Origin: Bacillota bacterium
Lineage (GTDB): Bacteria; Bacillota; Limnochordia; DTU087
Assembly (NCBI GenBank): GCA_012519025.1
Contig: JAAYQZ010000048.1
Span: forward strand, 1-64,000
Direction: 5' to 3'
Length of the DNA: 64,000 bases
The first letter of the stretch is position 1. Each line of letters starts with the position of its first letter. The notes below the pieces were generated by a model, which was not told the origin of the DNA, searched no databases, and worked only from the letters and a program-made list of their open reading frames with translations. The position numbers were made by a program, and so were the translations under genes. Below are positions 135-61,415 of this stretch, piece by piece.

Positions 135-163
135 TTGACATCTGTTTTTTTGCTTAGTATAAT
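135..163 (+). promoter_or_regulatory. Consensus sigma-A promoter for the tandem T-box unit
   Basis: TTGACA at 135-140 and TATAAT at 158-163 are both perfect consensus hexamers, separated by exactly 17 bases. Transcription would start near 170, just before the first T-box stem I. A full-consensus promoter suits a leader whose output is set by attenuation rather than by initiation. Confidence 0.85.
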
Positions 164-184
164 AGCAACATCCAAATAAAAAGG

Positions 185-430
185 CGATGAAGGGAAGAGT
201 AGGTACTTTCCGTGAACTTGAAGCCGTGTCAGCATATGGCGTTTCACGCAAGGTCTACAGCCACCCCGGAGCTGTGCCTGAGTGATGTATTTCAGTAAGG
301 TGCACCGGAGAAGCAACTCCGTTAACAACAGTGCAAACAGGTTTGCACTATGAGACCGCTTGCGCAAGCCGGCGGTGAAAATGGGTGGTAACACGGTACC
401 TCCGTCCCATTAGGGGCGGAGGTTTTTTAA
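185..430 (+). promoter_or_regulatory. T-box leader 1 of a tandem pair
   Basis: The leader has a stem I region with a GATGA element and an AGTA-type loop near 186-202, and an upper helix CGTGAA/TTCACG. The T-box core GGGTGGTAACACGG lies at 383-396, followed by a strong GC-rich terminator hairpin. T-boxes sense the charging of a specific tRNA and switch between terminator and antiterminator. By aligning the specifier loop with the other two leaders I would read GCC (Ala), but this depends on an uncertain helix and I do not trust it. No gene lies between this element and the second T-box, so both appear to control the same operon. Confidence 0.8.
399..428 (+). terminator. Attenuator terminator of T-box 1
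   Basis: CCTCCG-type arms pair across a short loop (CCTCCGTCCC with GGGGCGGAGG) and are followed by TTTTTT. It sits directly after the T-box core, as expected for the terminator conformation. Confidence 0.85.
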
Positions 431-444
431 TTTCATTACTGAAA

Positions 445-690
445 ATAGCGATGATGGGGAAGAAGTTTTGTGGGATTCTCTAGAGAGGAGTCGGTCGCTG
501 AAAGGCTCTGAATCCGATAAACAGGCCCCCCCTGAGCAGTTTGTGAAAGCGGAAGCTGTAAACAAACCGGATGCCTTCCGTTAACGAGGTGCCTTGGATT
601 TAGTGTCTAAGGAGTGAGGGGCCGGCCGATAGCCGGCAACTGGAGTGGTACCGCGGGAATCCCGTCTCTGGCAAAGAGGCGGGATTTTTA
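445..690 (+). promoter_or_regulatory. T-box leader 2 of a tandem pair
   Basis: This is a second complete leader. It has GATGA plus a loop element near 450-470, an AGAGAG-type upper stem I region near 481-510 closed by GGATTC/GAATCC, the core GGAGTGGTACCGCGG at 642-656, and its own terminator. Aligning the specifier loop with T-box 3 would suggest CAG (Gln), but the pairing is ambiguous and the tRNA identity should be treated as unknown. The next gene is the aminotransferase at 715. Confidence 0.88.
658..690 (+). terminator. Attenuator terminator of T-box 2
   Basis: AATCCCGTCTCT pairs with AGAGGCGGGATT over a 5-base loop and runs into a T tract. The gene SD (GGAGG at 698-702) follows at once, so readthrough is needed for expression. 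Confidence 0.85.
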
Positions 691-714: not shown

Positions 715-1929
715 ATGCTGCAGATGGAGCGTTTTTATGCGGAACGAGTTGGGGACATGAAAGGTTCTGACATTCGGGACGCGTTTAAATTGACAGAAGC
801 CGCTGATGTGATTTCTTTTGCCGGGGGATTTCCGGCCGTGGATGCCTTCCCGGTGTCCTTAATTGAGACTGTAATGGATGATTTGTTCCGCTGTGACTAT
901 ACAGGGCTGCAGTATGGTCCCACTGAAGGCCTGGAAGAGCTCAGGCGCCAAGTGGCTGTAATGATGGATGCTGAGAATATTCCTTCTGATGTGGACAACA
1001 TTTTAATCACCAATGGTTCCCAACAGGCTTTGGATTTGATTGCAAAAATATTTCTTGATCCTAAAGATTATGTGTTGGTGGAGCAGCCGGGGTATATTGG
1101 GGGATTAAATGCCATTGGCAACTATCAAGGGCAAATGGTGGGCATTCCCTTGGATGACGATGGTCTGAGAATCGATATTTTAGCCAATAAGCTAAAAGAA
1201 ATGTCAAATAAGGGTCGACACCCGAAATTTCTTTATACAGTGCCGAATTTTCAAAACCCCACCGGTGTGACGCTTTCTTTAGAGCGGAGGCGGGGCTTGC
1301 TGGAGTTAGCCCGTGAGTATGATTTCCTAATTTTGGAGGATAATCCATATGGCCGCATCTCTTTTGGCCAAGAACCGCTGCCCCATCTAAAAACCTTGGA
1401 TACTGAGGGCCGAGTTATATATTTGGGATCATTTTCAAAAATCCTGATTCCCGGTGCCAGGGTGGGCTGGGCTGTGGGTTTGCCCGGCGTAATTAGGCAG
1501 CTTTCCATTGCTAAACAAGGTACGGATCTTTGTTCCAGTTCGCTGGGCATGAAGCTGGTGCTGGACTGTATTATGAGCGGGGAATTGGATGGACACATAG
1601 ATTCGCTGAAGGTACTTTATAGAAGGCGACGGGACATTATGCTCGAAAGCCTTGGCCGCTATATGCCTGCGGAGGTGCGCTGGACACATCCGGAAGGTGG
1701 GTTCTTTGTCTGGTTGAGGTTGCCGTCGTATATAGACAGCCGGGCACTTTTGCCTTTTGCCTTGGAAGAAGAAAAAGTAGCCTATGTAGGTGGGAAAGGC
1801 TTTCATGTAGACGGAAGCGGACACAACACTATCAGATTAGCTTACAGCCAAGCTCCGGAATCTGATATAGCAGAGGGCATTAGAAGATTGGCCAAAGTGC
1901 TTCGCCGCCAAATTGAATCGGCCATATAA
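715..1929 (+). CDS. PLP-dependent aminotransferase, class I/II (LysN/AraT-like)
   Basis: A fold-type I aminotransferase of 404 residues, the usual length for the 2-aminoadipate/aromatic/branched-chain (LysN, MocR-catalytic-domain) group. Visible motifs are NPTG at about 181-184, the cofactor-binding EDNPY at 208-212, and SFSK with the Schiff-base lysine at about 242, followed by PGARVGW. There is no N-terminal GntR helix-turn-helix, so it is an enzyme and not a MocR regulator. The start ATG lies 12 bases after GGAGG; an in-frame ATG at 724 is an alternative. Two T-box leaders precede it and ilvD lies two genes downstream, which fits a last transamination step in amino acid synthesis. The substrate cannot be fixed from sequence; branched-chain, aromatic and aminoadipate keto acids are all possible. 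Confidence 0.85.
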   Translation: MLQMERFYAERVGDMKGSDIRDAFKLTEAADVISFAGGFPAVDAFPVSLIETVMDDLFRCDYTGLQYGPTEGLEELRRQVAVMMDAENIPSDVDNILITNGSQQALDLIAKIFLDPKDYVLVEQPGYIGGLNAIGNYQGQMVGIPLDDDGLRIDILANKLKEMSNKGRHPKFLYTVPNFQNPTGVTLSLERRRGLLELAREYDFLILEDNPYGRISFGQEPLPHLKTLDTEGRVIYLGSFSKILIPGARVGWAVGLPGVIRQLSIAKQGTDLCSSSLGMKLVLDCIMSGELDGHIDSLKVLYRRRRDIMLESLGRYMPAEVRWTHPEGGFFVWLRLPSYIDSRALLPFALEEEKVAYVGGKGFHVDGSGHNTIRLAYSQAPESDIAEGIRRLAKVLRRQIESAI

Positions 1930-2027: not shown

Positions 2028-2447
2028 ATGCGAGTATTGATTTTATACAGCAAGGAAGGACGGGTTGGGGCTTTAGCAAAAGGACTTGCCAATGCACTGG
2101 AAAGAGACAATTGTTCGGTAAAGTTGATGGAAGCAGATCCTGATGGTGCCGGCCCCATTTCCGGTGCACCATATGAGCTGGTCATTTTAGGCAGTCCTTC
2201 ATTGGGTTTTTTGGGCGGGAAAATAGCCGCAGATCTAACTGCCACCAGCGCAAGGTTAAGCCGGCTGGAAGGTCGCAAGGCTGCTGCATTTGTAAGCGCT
2301 AAACTATTTGGGGCAAGCAAATCTTTGAAAGCAGTGATGGCACTCTTGGAAAAACAAGGTGCTATGGTGGAGGACTTTGCCGCCCTTGGCAGCCAATCAG
2401 ACATAGATTCTTTCAGCAAGCGGTTAGTTAGACTCATCCACAGATAG
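2028..2447 (+). CDS. Small flavodoxin-like protein
   Basis: 139 residues starting at an ATG six bases after GCGGAGG. The track start at TTG 1989 would add residues upstream of the SD and is unlikely. The N-terminus (RVLILYSKEGRVG) has the beta strand and phosphate-binding loop of a flavodoxin fold, though the loop is not the strict T/SxTGxT. A second strand, LVILGSPSLGF, matches the flavin-contact region. A flavin-binding electron carrier or FMN reductase is likely by fold; the partner is unknown. It sits between the aminotransferase and ilvD in the T-box unit, so supplying electrons to the IlvD iron-sulfur cluster is conceivable but only inference. Confidence 0.6.
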   Translation: MRVLILYSKEGRVGALAKGLANALERDNCSVKLMEADPDGAGPISGAPYELVILGSPSLGFLGGKIAADLTATSARLSRLEGRKAAAFVSAKLFGASKSLKAVMALLEKQGAMVEDFAALGSQSDIDSFSKRLVRLIHR

Positions 2448-2497: not shown

Positions 2498-4156
2498 ATG
2501 AGAAGTAATGTGATGAAAAAAGGATTGGAACGGGCACCTCACCGCTCTTTGCTTAAAGCAATGGGCTACACAGACACAGAAATTCAGCAGCCAATTATCG
2601 GGATAGCTAACGCTGCCAACAGCATTGTACCCGGACACATTGATCTAGATAAGATAACTGATGCCGTAGAAGCCGGAATCCGCACAGCCGGAGGCACGCC
2701 GGTTCGATTTGGTACTATCGGCGTTTGTGATGGGATCGCCATGGGACATCAAGGTATGCGCTATTCACTGGCAAGCCGGGAGCTGATTGCCGATTCAGTG
2801 GAAATCATGGCAGAAGCCCATGCTTTTGATGGTTTAGTCTTGATTCCCAACTGCGATAAGATTGTCCCCGGTATGCTCATGGCTGCGGCCAGAATCAATA
2901 TCCCAACGATTTTGGTCAGCGGCGGTCCGATGTTGGCAGGGAGGTATCGCGGTGAGAATGTTGATTTAAATACCGTCTTTGAAGCAGTAGGAGCGGTACA
3001 GGCTGGTAGAATGTCCTTGGATGAACTAAAGGAACTGGAAGATGAGGCCTGCCCCGGGTGCGGCAGCTGTGCCGGTATGTTTACCGCCAATTCTATGAAT
3101 TGTTTGGCAGAAGTACTGGGATTGGCTTTGCCGGGCAATGGGACTGTGCCTGCTGTCAGTGCCGCTAGAATTCGACTGGCTAAGACCGCCGGTGTGCAGG
3201 TTATGGCCCTGGTGGAGGCAGGACTTAAGCCGCGAGACATAATGAACGAAAGTGCATTTCGCAACGCTTTAACGGTGGATATGGCATTAGGATGTTCCAC
3301 CAACACCGTTCTGCATTTGCCTGCTGTAGCACATGAAGTCGGTCTTGAACTGTCCTTAAGTTTAGTTAATGAGATCAGCGAGGTAACACCCCATCTTTGC
3401 CACTTACGACCGGGTGGAGATCACCACTTGGCTGATCTGCATGAGGCAGGAGGAATTCCGGCAGTAATTAAAGAGCTTGGTAGTGCCGATCTTGTGGATC
3501 TTTTTTGCAAGACCGTCACGTTAAAGACCCATGGGGAAAATGTACAAAATGTGGTTACCTTAAAAGAAGATGTGATTCGCACAGTAAAAGACCCATATCA
3601 TGAAAAAGGCGGTTTGGCCGTCTTGTGGGGTAATATTGCACCTGAAGGAGGAGTTGTGAAGCAGGCAGCTGTTCGTCCCGAGATGCTTACCCATAAAGGA
3701 CCTGCTCGGGTATTTGATTCAGAAGAAACAGCTGTAAATGCCATTTTAAACGGCAAGATCCGGCCCGGGGATGTTATTGTGATCCGTTATGAAGGTCCAA
3801 AAGGCGGCCCGGGAATGCGGGAGATGCTTACTCCTACCTCCGCGGTGGTGGGCATGGGGTTGGATGATTCTGTTGCTTTAATCACCGATGGGCGTTTTTC
3901 GGGTGCAACCCGGGGCGCTGCCATTGGGCACATATCGCCAGAGGCTGCAGAAGGCGGCCCCATTGCGTTTATCAAAGAAGGCGATGAAATTGCAATTGAC
4001 ATACCCAACCAAAGCATTGAACTTGCGGTATCTAAAGACGAACTTCAGGAGCGCAAAGCCACCTGGCAGCCGGTGAAAAGGGATATTAAAGGATATTTGG
4101 CCCGTTATGCACAGCTGGTTACCTCTGCAGCAACTGGAGCGATTCTAAATGAGTAA
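2498..4156 (+). CDS. ilvD: Dihydroxy-acid dehydratase
   Basis: 552 residues, typical of IlvD. It dehydrates 2,3-dihydroxy-isovalerate and 2,3-dihydroxy-3-methylvalerate to the keto acids that precede valine, leucine and isoleucine. Likely cluster ligands are Cys119 ([10 protein letters not shown]) and the CPGCGSC segment at 185-191. The position where plant-type [2Fe-2S] enzymes carry a third cysteine is [10 protein letters not shown] here, with no Cys. The GGPGM motif near the C-terminus is present. The start [16 protein letters not shown] matches the family N-terminus. The SD AGGAAGGAGG lies about 30 bases upstream, further than usual. ilvD is separate from the ilvBNC-leu operon further downstream and answers to different T-boxes. 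Confidence 0.96.
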
Positions 4157-5702: not shown

Positions 5703-5869
5703 CTCTTATCAAGAGAGGCGGAGGGACTGGCCCGATGAAGCCCGGCAACCAATGGCAATATTGCCATAAGGTGCCAATTCCTGCTGGAGTTTCCAGAAAG
5801 ATAAGAGGGGAGCATTGTCCACTGCCTTTATGATGCTAACCTCTTCTTTTTGGAAGAGGTTTTATTTTT
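5703..5869 (+). promoter_or_regulatory. SAM-I riboswitch (S-box) with terminator
   Basis: The aptamer runs from 5703 to 5807. P1 is formed by CTCTTATC and GATAAGAG, and the conserved S-box core includes GAGGGACTGGCCCGATGAAG, CCCGGCAACC and GGTGCCAATTCC. A terminator hairpin (AACCTCTTC with GAAGAGGTT, then T-rich) lies at 5838-5869. Bound SAM is expected to free the terminator and stop transcription, so metY is expressed when SAM is scarce. Confidence 0.96.
5838..5869 (+). terminator. Expression-platform terminator of the SAM riboswitch
   Basis: AACCTCTTC and GAAGAGGTT pair over a short T-rich loop and are followed by TTTATTTTT. It lies 37 bases upstream of the metY start. Confidence 0.88.
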
Positions 5870-5905: not shown

Positions 5906-7186
5906 TTGGAGAAAAAATCCCTTGATACACTGTGTGTTCACGGAGGCTATGTGCCCCTGGACGGAGAAAGCCGGGTTGCGCCCATCTTTCAATCAACAGC
6001 CTTTAGTTTTAATAATGCTGATCATGTAGCTGCTTTGTTTGACTTGGAAAAAGAAGGTCATATGTATTCCAGAATATCGAATCCGACGGTGGAGATCTTA
6101 GAAAAGAAAATAGCCTCCCTTGAAGGGGGTGTTGGCGCACTTTGTACATCCTCCGGCCAGGCCGCGACCTTACTGGCTGTGCTTACCATTTGCTCTGAGG
6201 GGGATCATATAGTTGCTTTTAACAATATTTACGGGGGAACGTTCACCCTGTTCAGTTCTACTTTAAAAGGGCTGGGTATTGACACAACCTTTGTGGATTT
6301 AAATGCACAAGATGAGGACATTTCTAAGCTAATTCACCCCAACACTAAATTATTGTTCGGTGAGACGATTGCCAACCCCCTGGGGCAAGTTTTAGATATT
6401 AGGAGATTTGCCAATCTGGCACATAAACACGGCATTCCACTGGTAGTAGACAATACATTTCCAACTCCGGTTTTATCGAGACCGTTCGAATTTGGAGCAG
6501 ATATTGTTACCCATTCCACTACAAAGTACTTAGATGGGCACGCTACTTCTGTCGGTGGTGCCATCGTAGACAGCGGCAGCTTTGATTGGGAAAACGGGAA
6601 GTTTCCTGGTCTGACGGAAAAGGATCCCAGCTACCATGGGCTAAGTTACACGGAAAAATTCGGCAAAAAGGCGTTTATCCAACGGGCGAGGGTGGTGTTT
6701 CTGCGGGATTTGGGTACCTCTATGAGTCCGTTCAATGCATTTTTAACCAATTTGGGAATTGAGACCTTAGCCCTGCGTATGGAAAAACACTCAACAAACG
6801 CCCTGACTGTTGCCAAATACTTAGAATCAAATCCGTACGTTGAATGGGTAAACTACCCATTATTGGAGTCCAGTCCAGACTATTCGCTGGCCCAGGAGTA
6901 TTTGGCAGATGGTGCAAGCGGTGTGGTGACCTTTGCGATCAAGGGTGGGATAGAACAAGGCAAACAGTTTATTGACAATCTCGAGCTTGTCAGTTTAGCA
7001 GTGCACGTCGGTGATGTGAGAAGTTTGGTTCTCCATCCGGCAAGTACAACACATAGGCAGCTTTCGGCCGAGGATAAAAAGATAGCGGGGATTGCCGACA
7101 ACATGATTAGGCTCTCTGTGGGAATCGAGGATGTTCAGGAGATCATACGGGATATTGAAAACGCCTTACGAAAAAGCCAAAGGTGA
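5906..7186 (+). CDS. metY: O-acetylhomoserine sulfhydrylase
   Basis: 426 residues of the Cys/Met metabolism PLP family, at the long end typical of MetY-type O-acetyl-L-homoserine aminocarboxypropyltransferases (about 425) rather than MetB/MetC (about 380). It condenses O-acetylhomoserine with sulfide to homocysteine. The Schiff-base lysine is about residue 207 in THSTTKYLDGHATSVGG, and SRISNPT near 55-61 is the phosphate-binding region. The TTG start is chosen because GGAGGAGG lies 8 bases upstream and the protein begins with the family-typical LDTLCVHGG. The upstream SAM-I riboswitch supports a methionine role. No metX homolog is in this window. Confidence 0.93.
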   Translation: MEKKSLDTLCVHGGYVPLDGESRVAPIFQSTAFSFNNADHVAALFDLEKEGHMYSRISNPTVEILEKKIASLEGGVGALCTSSGQAATLLAVLTICSEGDHIVAFNNIYGGTFTLFSSTLKGLGIDTTFVDLNAQDEDISKLIHPNTKLLFGETIANPLGQVLDIRRFANLAHKHGIPLVVDNTFPTPVLSRPFEFGADIVTHSTTKYLDGHATSVGGAIVDSGSFDWENGKFPGLTEKDPSYHGLSYTEKFGKKAFIQRARVVFLRDLGTSMSPFNAFLTNLGIETLALRMEKHSTNALTVAKYLESNPYVEWVNYPLLESSPDYSLAQEYLADGASGVVTFAIKGGIEQGKQFIDNLELVSLAVHVGDVRSLVLHPASTTHRQLSAEDKKIAGIADNMIRLSVGIEDVQEIIRDIENALRKSQR

Positions 7187-8734: not shown

Positions 8735-9012
8735 GCAGATAAAGGCGATGCAGGAGAAAAGTAGCTATAGAGGGTGGTTAAGAGAGTCGGCGGATGGTGC
8801 AAGCCGAACCAAGACTATATGCGAAACTCACTCCGAAGCTGTTGACCGAAAACCTCAAGTAGGTCCAACCGGATCACTTCCGTTAGCAGTGGGTTCCCCC
8901 AAAGCCAGGTTTTGGGGGGCTGAGATTGCGGGCTGTTGCTCATTTGCTGCTCCCGTGATGAAAAAGGGTGGTACCACGATATCTCTCGTCCCTTTCGGAC
9001 GGGAGATTTTTG
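8735..9012 (+). promoter_or_regulatory. T-box leader 3, leucine-type, for ilvBNC-leuACDB-cimA
   Basis: A full T-box. GATGC and AAAAGTA lie in the lower stem I, GGTGGTT pairs with AACC in the upper helix, and the core AGGGTGGTACCACGA is at 8965-8979. The specifier loop can be drawn from the pairing GGAG/CTCC below and GCTATAG/CTATATGC above. The 3' side then reads GAAA-CTC-A, giving the leucine codon CTC at 8827-8829. That suits the ilv-leu operon that follows and is the same identity as the Bacillus ilv-leu leader. Confidence 0.93.
8983..9012 (+). terminator. Attenuator terminator of T-box 3
   Basis: CTCTCGTCC pairs with GGACGGGAG over a 5-base loop and runs into TTTTTG. It directly follows the T-box core. 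Confidence 0.88.
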
Positions 9013-61212: not shown

Positions 61213-61415
61213 GCAGCAAAAACCTGTTAACTGCCCTACCGTGTGCGTGGTCAACCTGGCTATGTTATGAGCCAACACCATAACATTGGGAGCCTAATCT
61301 CTGATAGCGGCGTGCAGGCCTTTTAAAAAGGAAGCATTAAGTTATTAGGACGGCACCCACCTGCCGAGGCAGGTTCATTAACAGTCAGGATTAACGGCAT
61401 GGTGGGGATTTTTTT
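61213..61415 (+). ncRNA. ssrS: 6S RNA (RNA polymerase-binding regulator)
   Basis: About 200 bases, the expected length, between its own promoter and a T run. The ends pair: CCCTACC near 61234-61240 with GGTGGGG near 61401-61407, followed by TTTTTTT as in an intrinsic terminator. The interior holds paired arms around loops, including ACCTGCC/GGCAGGT, typical of the long bulged 6S hairpin that mimics an open promoter and binds the sigma-A holoenzyme. Position supports it: as I recall, a Bacillus 6S RNA gene lies between aspS and yrvM, and the next gene here is the yrvM/tcdA homolog. I recognised it by layout and promoter rather than by an alignment. Confidence 0.75.

Follow-up and report, generated by a model that had tools for sequence, protein, structure and literature searches.

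Analysis of 64,000 nt of a Bacillota bacterium genome (DTU087; GCA_012519025.1, contig JAAYQZ010000048.1, positions 1–64,000 of the forward strand, in the following called the window) revealed a tandem of two T-box leaders, T1 (178–412) and T2 (442–672), before an aminotransferase gene (Table 1), an arrangement shared within a group of uncultured Bacillota. Judged from sequence, folds and conservation, the two leaders very probably represent serial attenuators for one ligand, tRNA-Ala(GGC), which together would form a low-leak, pseudo-cooperative switch turning on the operon of a predicted alanine-forming aminotransferase.

Table 1. Positions of the leader elements and of the genes downstream in the window
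Feature	Position	Strand	Remarks
Promoter-like site TTGACA-17-TATAAT	135..163	+	12/12 consensus positions; upstream of T1
T1, first T-box leader (178–412) with terminator (398–423) and T run	178..430	+	RF00230, 61.9 bits, E = 5.7e-13
T1 specifier GCC (Ala)	260..262	+	in 13/13 T1s; helix register covaries
T1 antiterminator bulge UGGUAAC, 7 nt	386..392	+	fold of 380–410; invariant in family alignment
T2, second T-box leader (442–672) with terminator (655–689)	442..690	+	RF00230, 102.5 bits, over gathering score
T2 specifier GCC (Ala)	525..527	+	in 13/13 T2s; helix register covaries
T2 antiterminator bulge UGGUACC, 7 nt	646..652	+	fold of 641–669; invariant in family alignment
Regulated gene, fold-type I aminotransferase, 404 aa, predicted alanine-forming	715..1929	+	role inferred from T-box specifier
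Small flavodoxin-like protein	2028..2447	+	name from sequence reading; probably same operon
ilvD, dihydroxy-acid dehydratase	2498..4156	+	TIGR00110, 801 bits, over cut-off; probably same operon

Comparison with the T-box covariance model of Rfam (RF00230, gathering score of 93 bits) placed T2 above the gathering score, while T1, a full-length match in the search of 720 bases, remained below it. In a search of the whole genome, T1 was found with an E-value of 4.5e-13, and since the tandem also recurs upstream of orthologous genes, a chance match can be ruled out. The initial annotation had named a covariance model that scores only one of the two leaders as a reason to give up the tandem. Taken literally, this is narrowly what the search revealed, but the E-values and the orthologous T1s that exceed the Rfam cut-off show that T1 is a T-box, and its reading as a false match was rejected. 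Folding resulted in strong terminators for both leaders (T1, -25.0 kcal/mol, z = -4.7; T2, -23.6 kcal/mol, z = -3.8; shuffle mean about -13 in each case). Each terminator is mutually exclusive with the antiterminator of its own leader, as seen in folds of 380–425 for T1, of 641–692 for T2, and of shorter stretches. No ORF was found on the coding strand between T1 and T2. Thus, the covariance model, the folds, and the ORF scan agree on two T-box leaders in tandem, each with its own terminator and no gene in between, as described at first. The sigma-A-type site listed in Table 1 was the sole promoter-like site within positions 1–800, so that none was found between the two leaders, and by inspection similar sites precede T1 in relatives. 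The arrangement is that of a same-ligand tandem, in which two complete elements with a shared specifier follow each other without an intervening promoter.

Orthologues of the aminotransferase were sought in the genome of the window and in 60 relatives. The pair of T1 and T2 was located directly upstream of the gene in 12 genomes of this set. Besides the window's own genome and the sister species, these are six further members of the family, one more member of the order, and three more of the class; a thirteenth pair was identified in L043, a named Bacillota MAG assembly. By themselves, three T1 orthologues score above the Rfam cut-off (L023, 104.9 bits; L021, 102.1 bits; L019, 94.1 bits), so that the low score of T1 in the window is a local feature. 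More distant orthologues are preceded by a single T-box, e.g., L024, L027–L029, L044–L048, L058, and L082. A tree built from 43 leaders separates the T1s from the T2s by a branch supported at 100/99; they are therefore not recent copies of one another, and the earlier statement that the pair is no simple duplication was borne out. The single leaders L024 and L048 group with T1, the other singles with T2. Several inner branches of this tree are weak and some rows are long, and it was used only for the two points that the types are old and distinct and that each occurs alone. Based on this analysis, T1 and T2 appear to be old, distinct types, either of which occurs by itself upstream of orthologues, so that each probably works on its own. 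In one relative (G005, contig C233), a second, partial aminotransferase copy (L035) was detected, which is 76% identical over 311 residues.

As seven consecutive C in T2 make the register of the specifier helix ambiguous in the window alone, we tested the register on relatives, using the four-base helix below the specifier loop in 42 related leaders. The segments were hand-picked around GCC, which means that the helix register was tested and not the presence of GCC. Pairing was best when the 3' strand of the helix began one base after GCC: of 52 possible pairs each, 45 were formed in T1 and 51 in T2, and the 16 single leaders, which also carry GCC, formed all of their 64; all other registers reached at most 35, 44, and 50 pairs, respectively. 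Compensatory changes were found in this helix (CAGG/CCUG, GAGG/CCUC, AGGG/CCCU, and GAAG/CUUC). Since the covarying helix puts GCC in the specifier position of T1 as well as of T2, both are identified as alanine T-boxes. RNAalifold proposed another register for T2, in which GGGG is paired with the specifier's own CC; it was rejected, as the shifted register is the one that agrees with relatives in which the C run is broken up. As a positive control, the triplet one base before the helix was read in other T-boxes of the same genome, resulting in Leu at leuS, Val at valS, Ser at serS, Thr at thrS, and Phe at pheS, where for thrS and pheS the script also listed other registers; the specifier of the ileS T-box was read by eye as AUC. 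The specifiers had tentatively been given as GCC and CAG. The latter triplet (522–524 in T2) occurs in only three of the 13 T2s, namely those of the window, L020, and L021, and is replaced elsewhere by TCG, CTA, TTG, TTA, GCG, and the like. On the strength of the alignment and the covariation, this pair of specifiers was rejected, and both are read here as GCC.

A gene for tRNA-Ala(GGC) was found in the genome on contig C58 (9331–9406; L165, 232–307). Its anticodon matches GCC at three of three positions, and its ACCA end matches the UGGU of the bulge. The 3' half of this gene is unpaired with the 5' half (TTCCGTCTGGGTCCACCA; relatives have TTCCCCTCATCTCCACCA) and is similar to the terminal part of the tRNA-Ala(CGC) gene; it is located near the contig end, and the gene is not called by ARAGORN. 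The odd 3' half may be an assembly chimera or fault near the contig end, or may go back to gene conversion. The genome also harbors tRNA-Ala(CGC), the first anticodon base of which would not pair with GCC.

Both leaders had been described as complete. T1 of the window's species is not fully canonical, as motifs of stem I are missing; in T2, the AG bulge is present. The window's T1 has no AG bulge (AGAGA), no GGUGNAA distal loop, and no GAA half of the S-turn in the specifier loop, all of which are kept by most T1 orthologues, and these losses account for its score below the cut-off. AG bulge, distal loop, and S-turn are parts that vary among T-boxes, and the first two of them contact the tRNA elbow in other T-boxes. 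By its sequence, the window's T1 no longer has the part of stem I that docks to the elbow, and it may bind tRNA weakly and less well than T2. In the sister species, the AG bulge of T1 is altered, with GAA and a GGUGAGA loop retained, and the T1 branch leading to the window's species is longer (0.47 vs. 0.18 for the sister). Specifier, antiterminator bulge, pseudoknot region, and terminator of T1 are intact in the window's species.

That the two leaders read two different tRNAs, via GCC and CAG, would agree with their differing upper stem I helices and with the ambiguous T2 register in the window, for which RNAalifold chooses another solution. Given the scarcity of CAG among T2s compared with GCC, and the relatives with an interrupted C run, which fix the GCC register, we consider such a dual input very improbable; different specifiers, as expected for it, were not found, GCC being present in both leaders of the window and of 12 other tandems. 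From the initial interpretation, we therefore retain tandem T-boxes that act in series and drop the two tRNA inputs. There is hardly any probability that the first terminator belongs to an unrelated upstream RNA and that T2 alone serves the aminotransferase, as had been considered at first. Though T1 falls below the gathering score and possesses a strong terminator of its own, only about 20 nt without any promoter-like site separate this terminator from T2, the pair is conserved before the same gene across a class, and orthologous T1s score above the cut-off.

More difficult to separate from a serial switch is a response of two thresholds, in which T1 and T2 differ in affinity for the same tRNA and the output is staged or shifted rather than mainly sharper. 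The AGUA/GAA S-turn of the specifier loop, present in T1 types and absent from T2-type leaders as a group, points in this direction, as does the window's T1, which is also without the elbow-docking motifs and lies on a long branch; yet the weaker leader dominates in series, so that two distinct output steps are not expected, and conservation alone does not separate a staged response from simple sharpening. We regard this reading as unlikely, though plausible, and give a similarly low rank to the idea that the diverged sensor types T1 and T2 might combine two affinities or kinetic windows for one tRNA and thus go beyond a doubling of one sensor. T1 might also be decaying in the window's species into a terminator or attenuator that is residual or largely constitutive, leaving regulation to T2 alone. 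Its low score compared with 94–105 bits for the best T1 orthologues, the loss of three stem I motifs, and the long branch fit such a decay, which nevertheless appears improbable, since the functional parts named above are intact and a leader unable to antiterminate would silence the operon, so that selection should keep T1 responsive.

The preferred explanation is that of two serial attenuators with a single ligand. One transcript from the promoter at 135–163 would carry both leaders in series. In each of them, tRNA-Ala(GGC) would pair at two places, through its anticodon with GCC and, when uncharged, through its ACCA end with the UGGU of the antiterminator bulge. When tRNA-Ala is charged, polymerase would stop at the T1 terminator, and the few escaping polymerases would reach the T2 terminator. 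Both leaders would antiterminate only with tRNA-Ala largely uncharged, i.e., when alanine is short, and the aminotransferase, followed by the flavodoxin-like gene and ilvD, would be switched on. For independent leaders, read-through would be approximately the product of two similar curves, and a lower leak and a steeper rise are therefore predicted. Points that count against this explanation are the stem I losses in the window's T1 and the damaged-looking tRNA-Ala(GGC) gene.

Regarding the regulated gene, no NCBIfam equivalog over the cut-off was found for the aminotransferase, and the relatives of solved structure closest to it are multi-substrate aminotransferases from archaea, the Thermus 2-aminoadipate aminotransferase, and an alanine-glyoxylate transaminase. 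The GCC specifier suggests that the aminotransferase supplies alanine, this reaction being a prediction from the leader; a search of the genome for an alanine dehydrogenase gave no match over the family cut-off. Among the assignable T-boxes of the genome, none precedes alaS; one weak match (L012) was left unassigned. The flavodoxin-like protein revealed no NCBIfam match. Its gene follows the aminotransferase in most relatives, with ilvD next in several, and as no promoter-like or terminator-like site was found on the coding strand of the window between the three genes, both probably belong to the same operon as the aminotransferase. Alanine control of ilvD is physiologically not obvious and also counts against the preferred explanation; speculatively, a valine-alanine transaminase activity would connect the aminotransferase with ilvD.

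Further RNA elements were identified in the window, namely a T-box over the RF00230 gathering score with a CUC (Leu) specifier before an ilvB-ilvN-ilvC-leuA operon (8739–8996), which resembles the ilv-leu T-box of Bacillus subtilis, a SAM riboswitch (S box, 5703–5807) before a gene for O-acetylhomoserine sulfhydrylase (5906–7186), and a 6S RNA (61230–61412, 101 bits). Elsewhere in the same genome, T-boxes were found before a DAHP-synthase-like gene (L001, 1501–1778; specifier UUC for Phe, read by eye) and before two genes for substrate-binding-protein-like products (L002, 1501–1759, specifier UGG for Trp; L005, 1501–1749, specifier ambiguous, UAC or ACA), and the latter two may mark amino-acid uptake systems.

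Altogether, our analysis extends the list of amino acids with same-ligand tandem T-boxes by alanine, and the specifier suggests a function that can be tested, namely alanine formation, for an aminotransferase whose role is not evident from sequence alone. Moreover, the conserved natural pairs and the single elements provide a set for testing how tandem T-boxes work, which was listed as unknown in a review of 2020 (PMC7583486). In the literature searched, with the surveys Vitreschak 2008 and Gutierrez-Preciado 2009 standing outside the comparison, we found neither an alanine case of a same-ligand tandem T-box nor an alanine T-box before an aminotransferase; the novelty of the latter is uncertain, and same-input tandems are already known for Trp, branched-chain, and Thr genes.

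Upstream of trp, ilv/leu, and thrS genes in Bacillota, contiguous T-boxes were described in a survey of 2025, in the text of which the word alanine does not occur (PMC12452182). Like the pair in the window, they consist of two complete T-boxes, one after the other and each with a sensor and a terminator of its own, and are taken as a pseudo-cooperative, digital-like switch, while in the present case alanine is the input and the controlled gene encodes an aminotransferase without assigned specificity. Reported alanine T-boxes mainly carry GCU (PMC7778990, PMC4695836, PMC2494555). The alaS T-boxes of Bacillus subtilis and Clostridium acetobutylicum (PMC4695836) likewise read tRNA-Ala and pair a UGGU bulge with ACCA, but they are single, have GCU, and precede alanyl-tRNA synthetase, whereas the leaders of this study are in tandem before an aminotransferase and carry GCC, which matches tRNA-Ala(GGC) along the whole anticodon. 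Finally, pseudo-cooperative tandem riboswitches (PMC9481103) also combine two switches for one ligand with separate expression platforms and an expected steeper response; in the case described here, the ligand would be a tRNA, both elements would be ON switches, and the steepness is a prediction.
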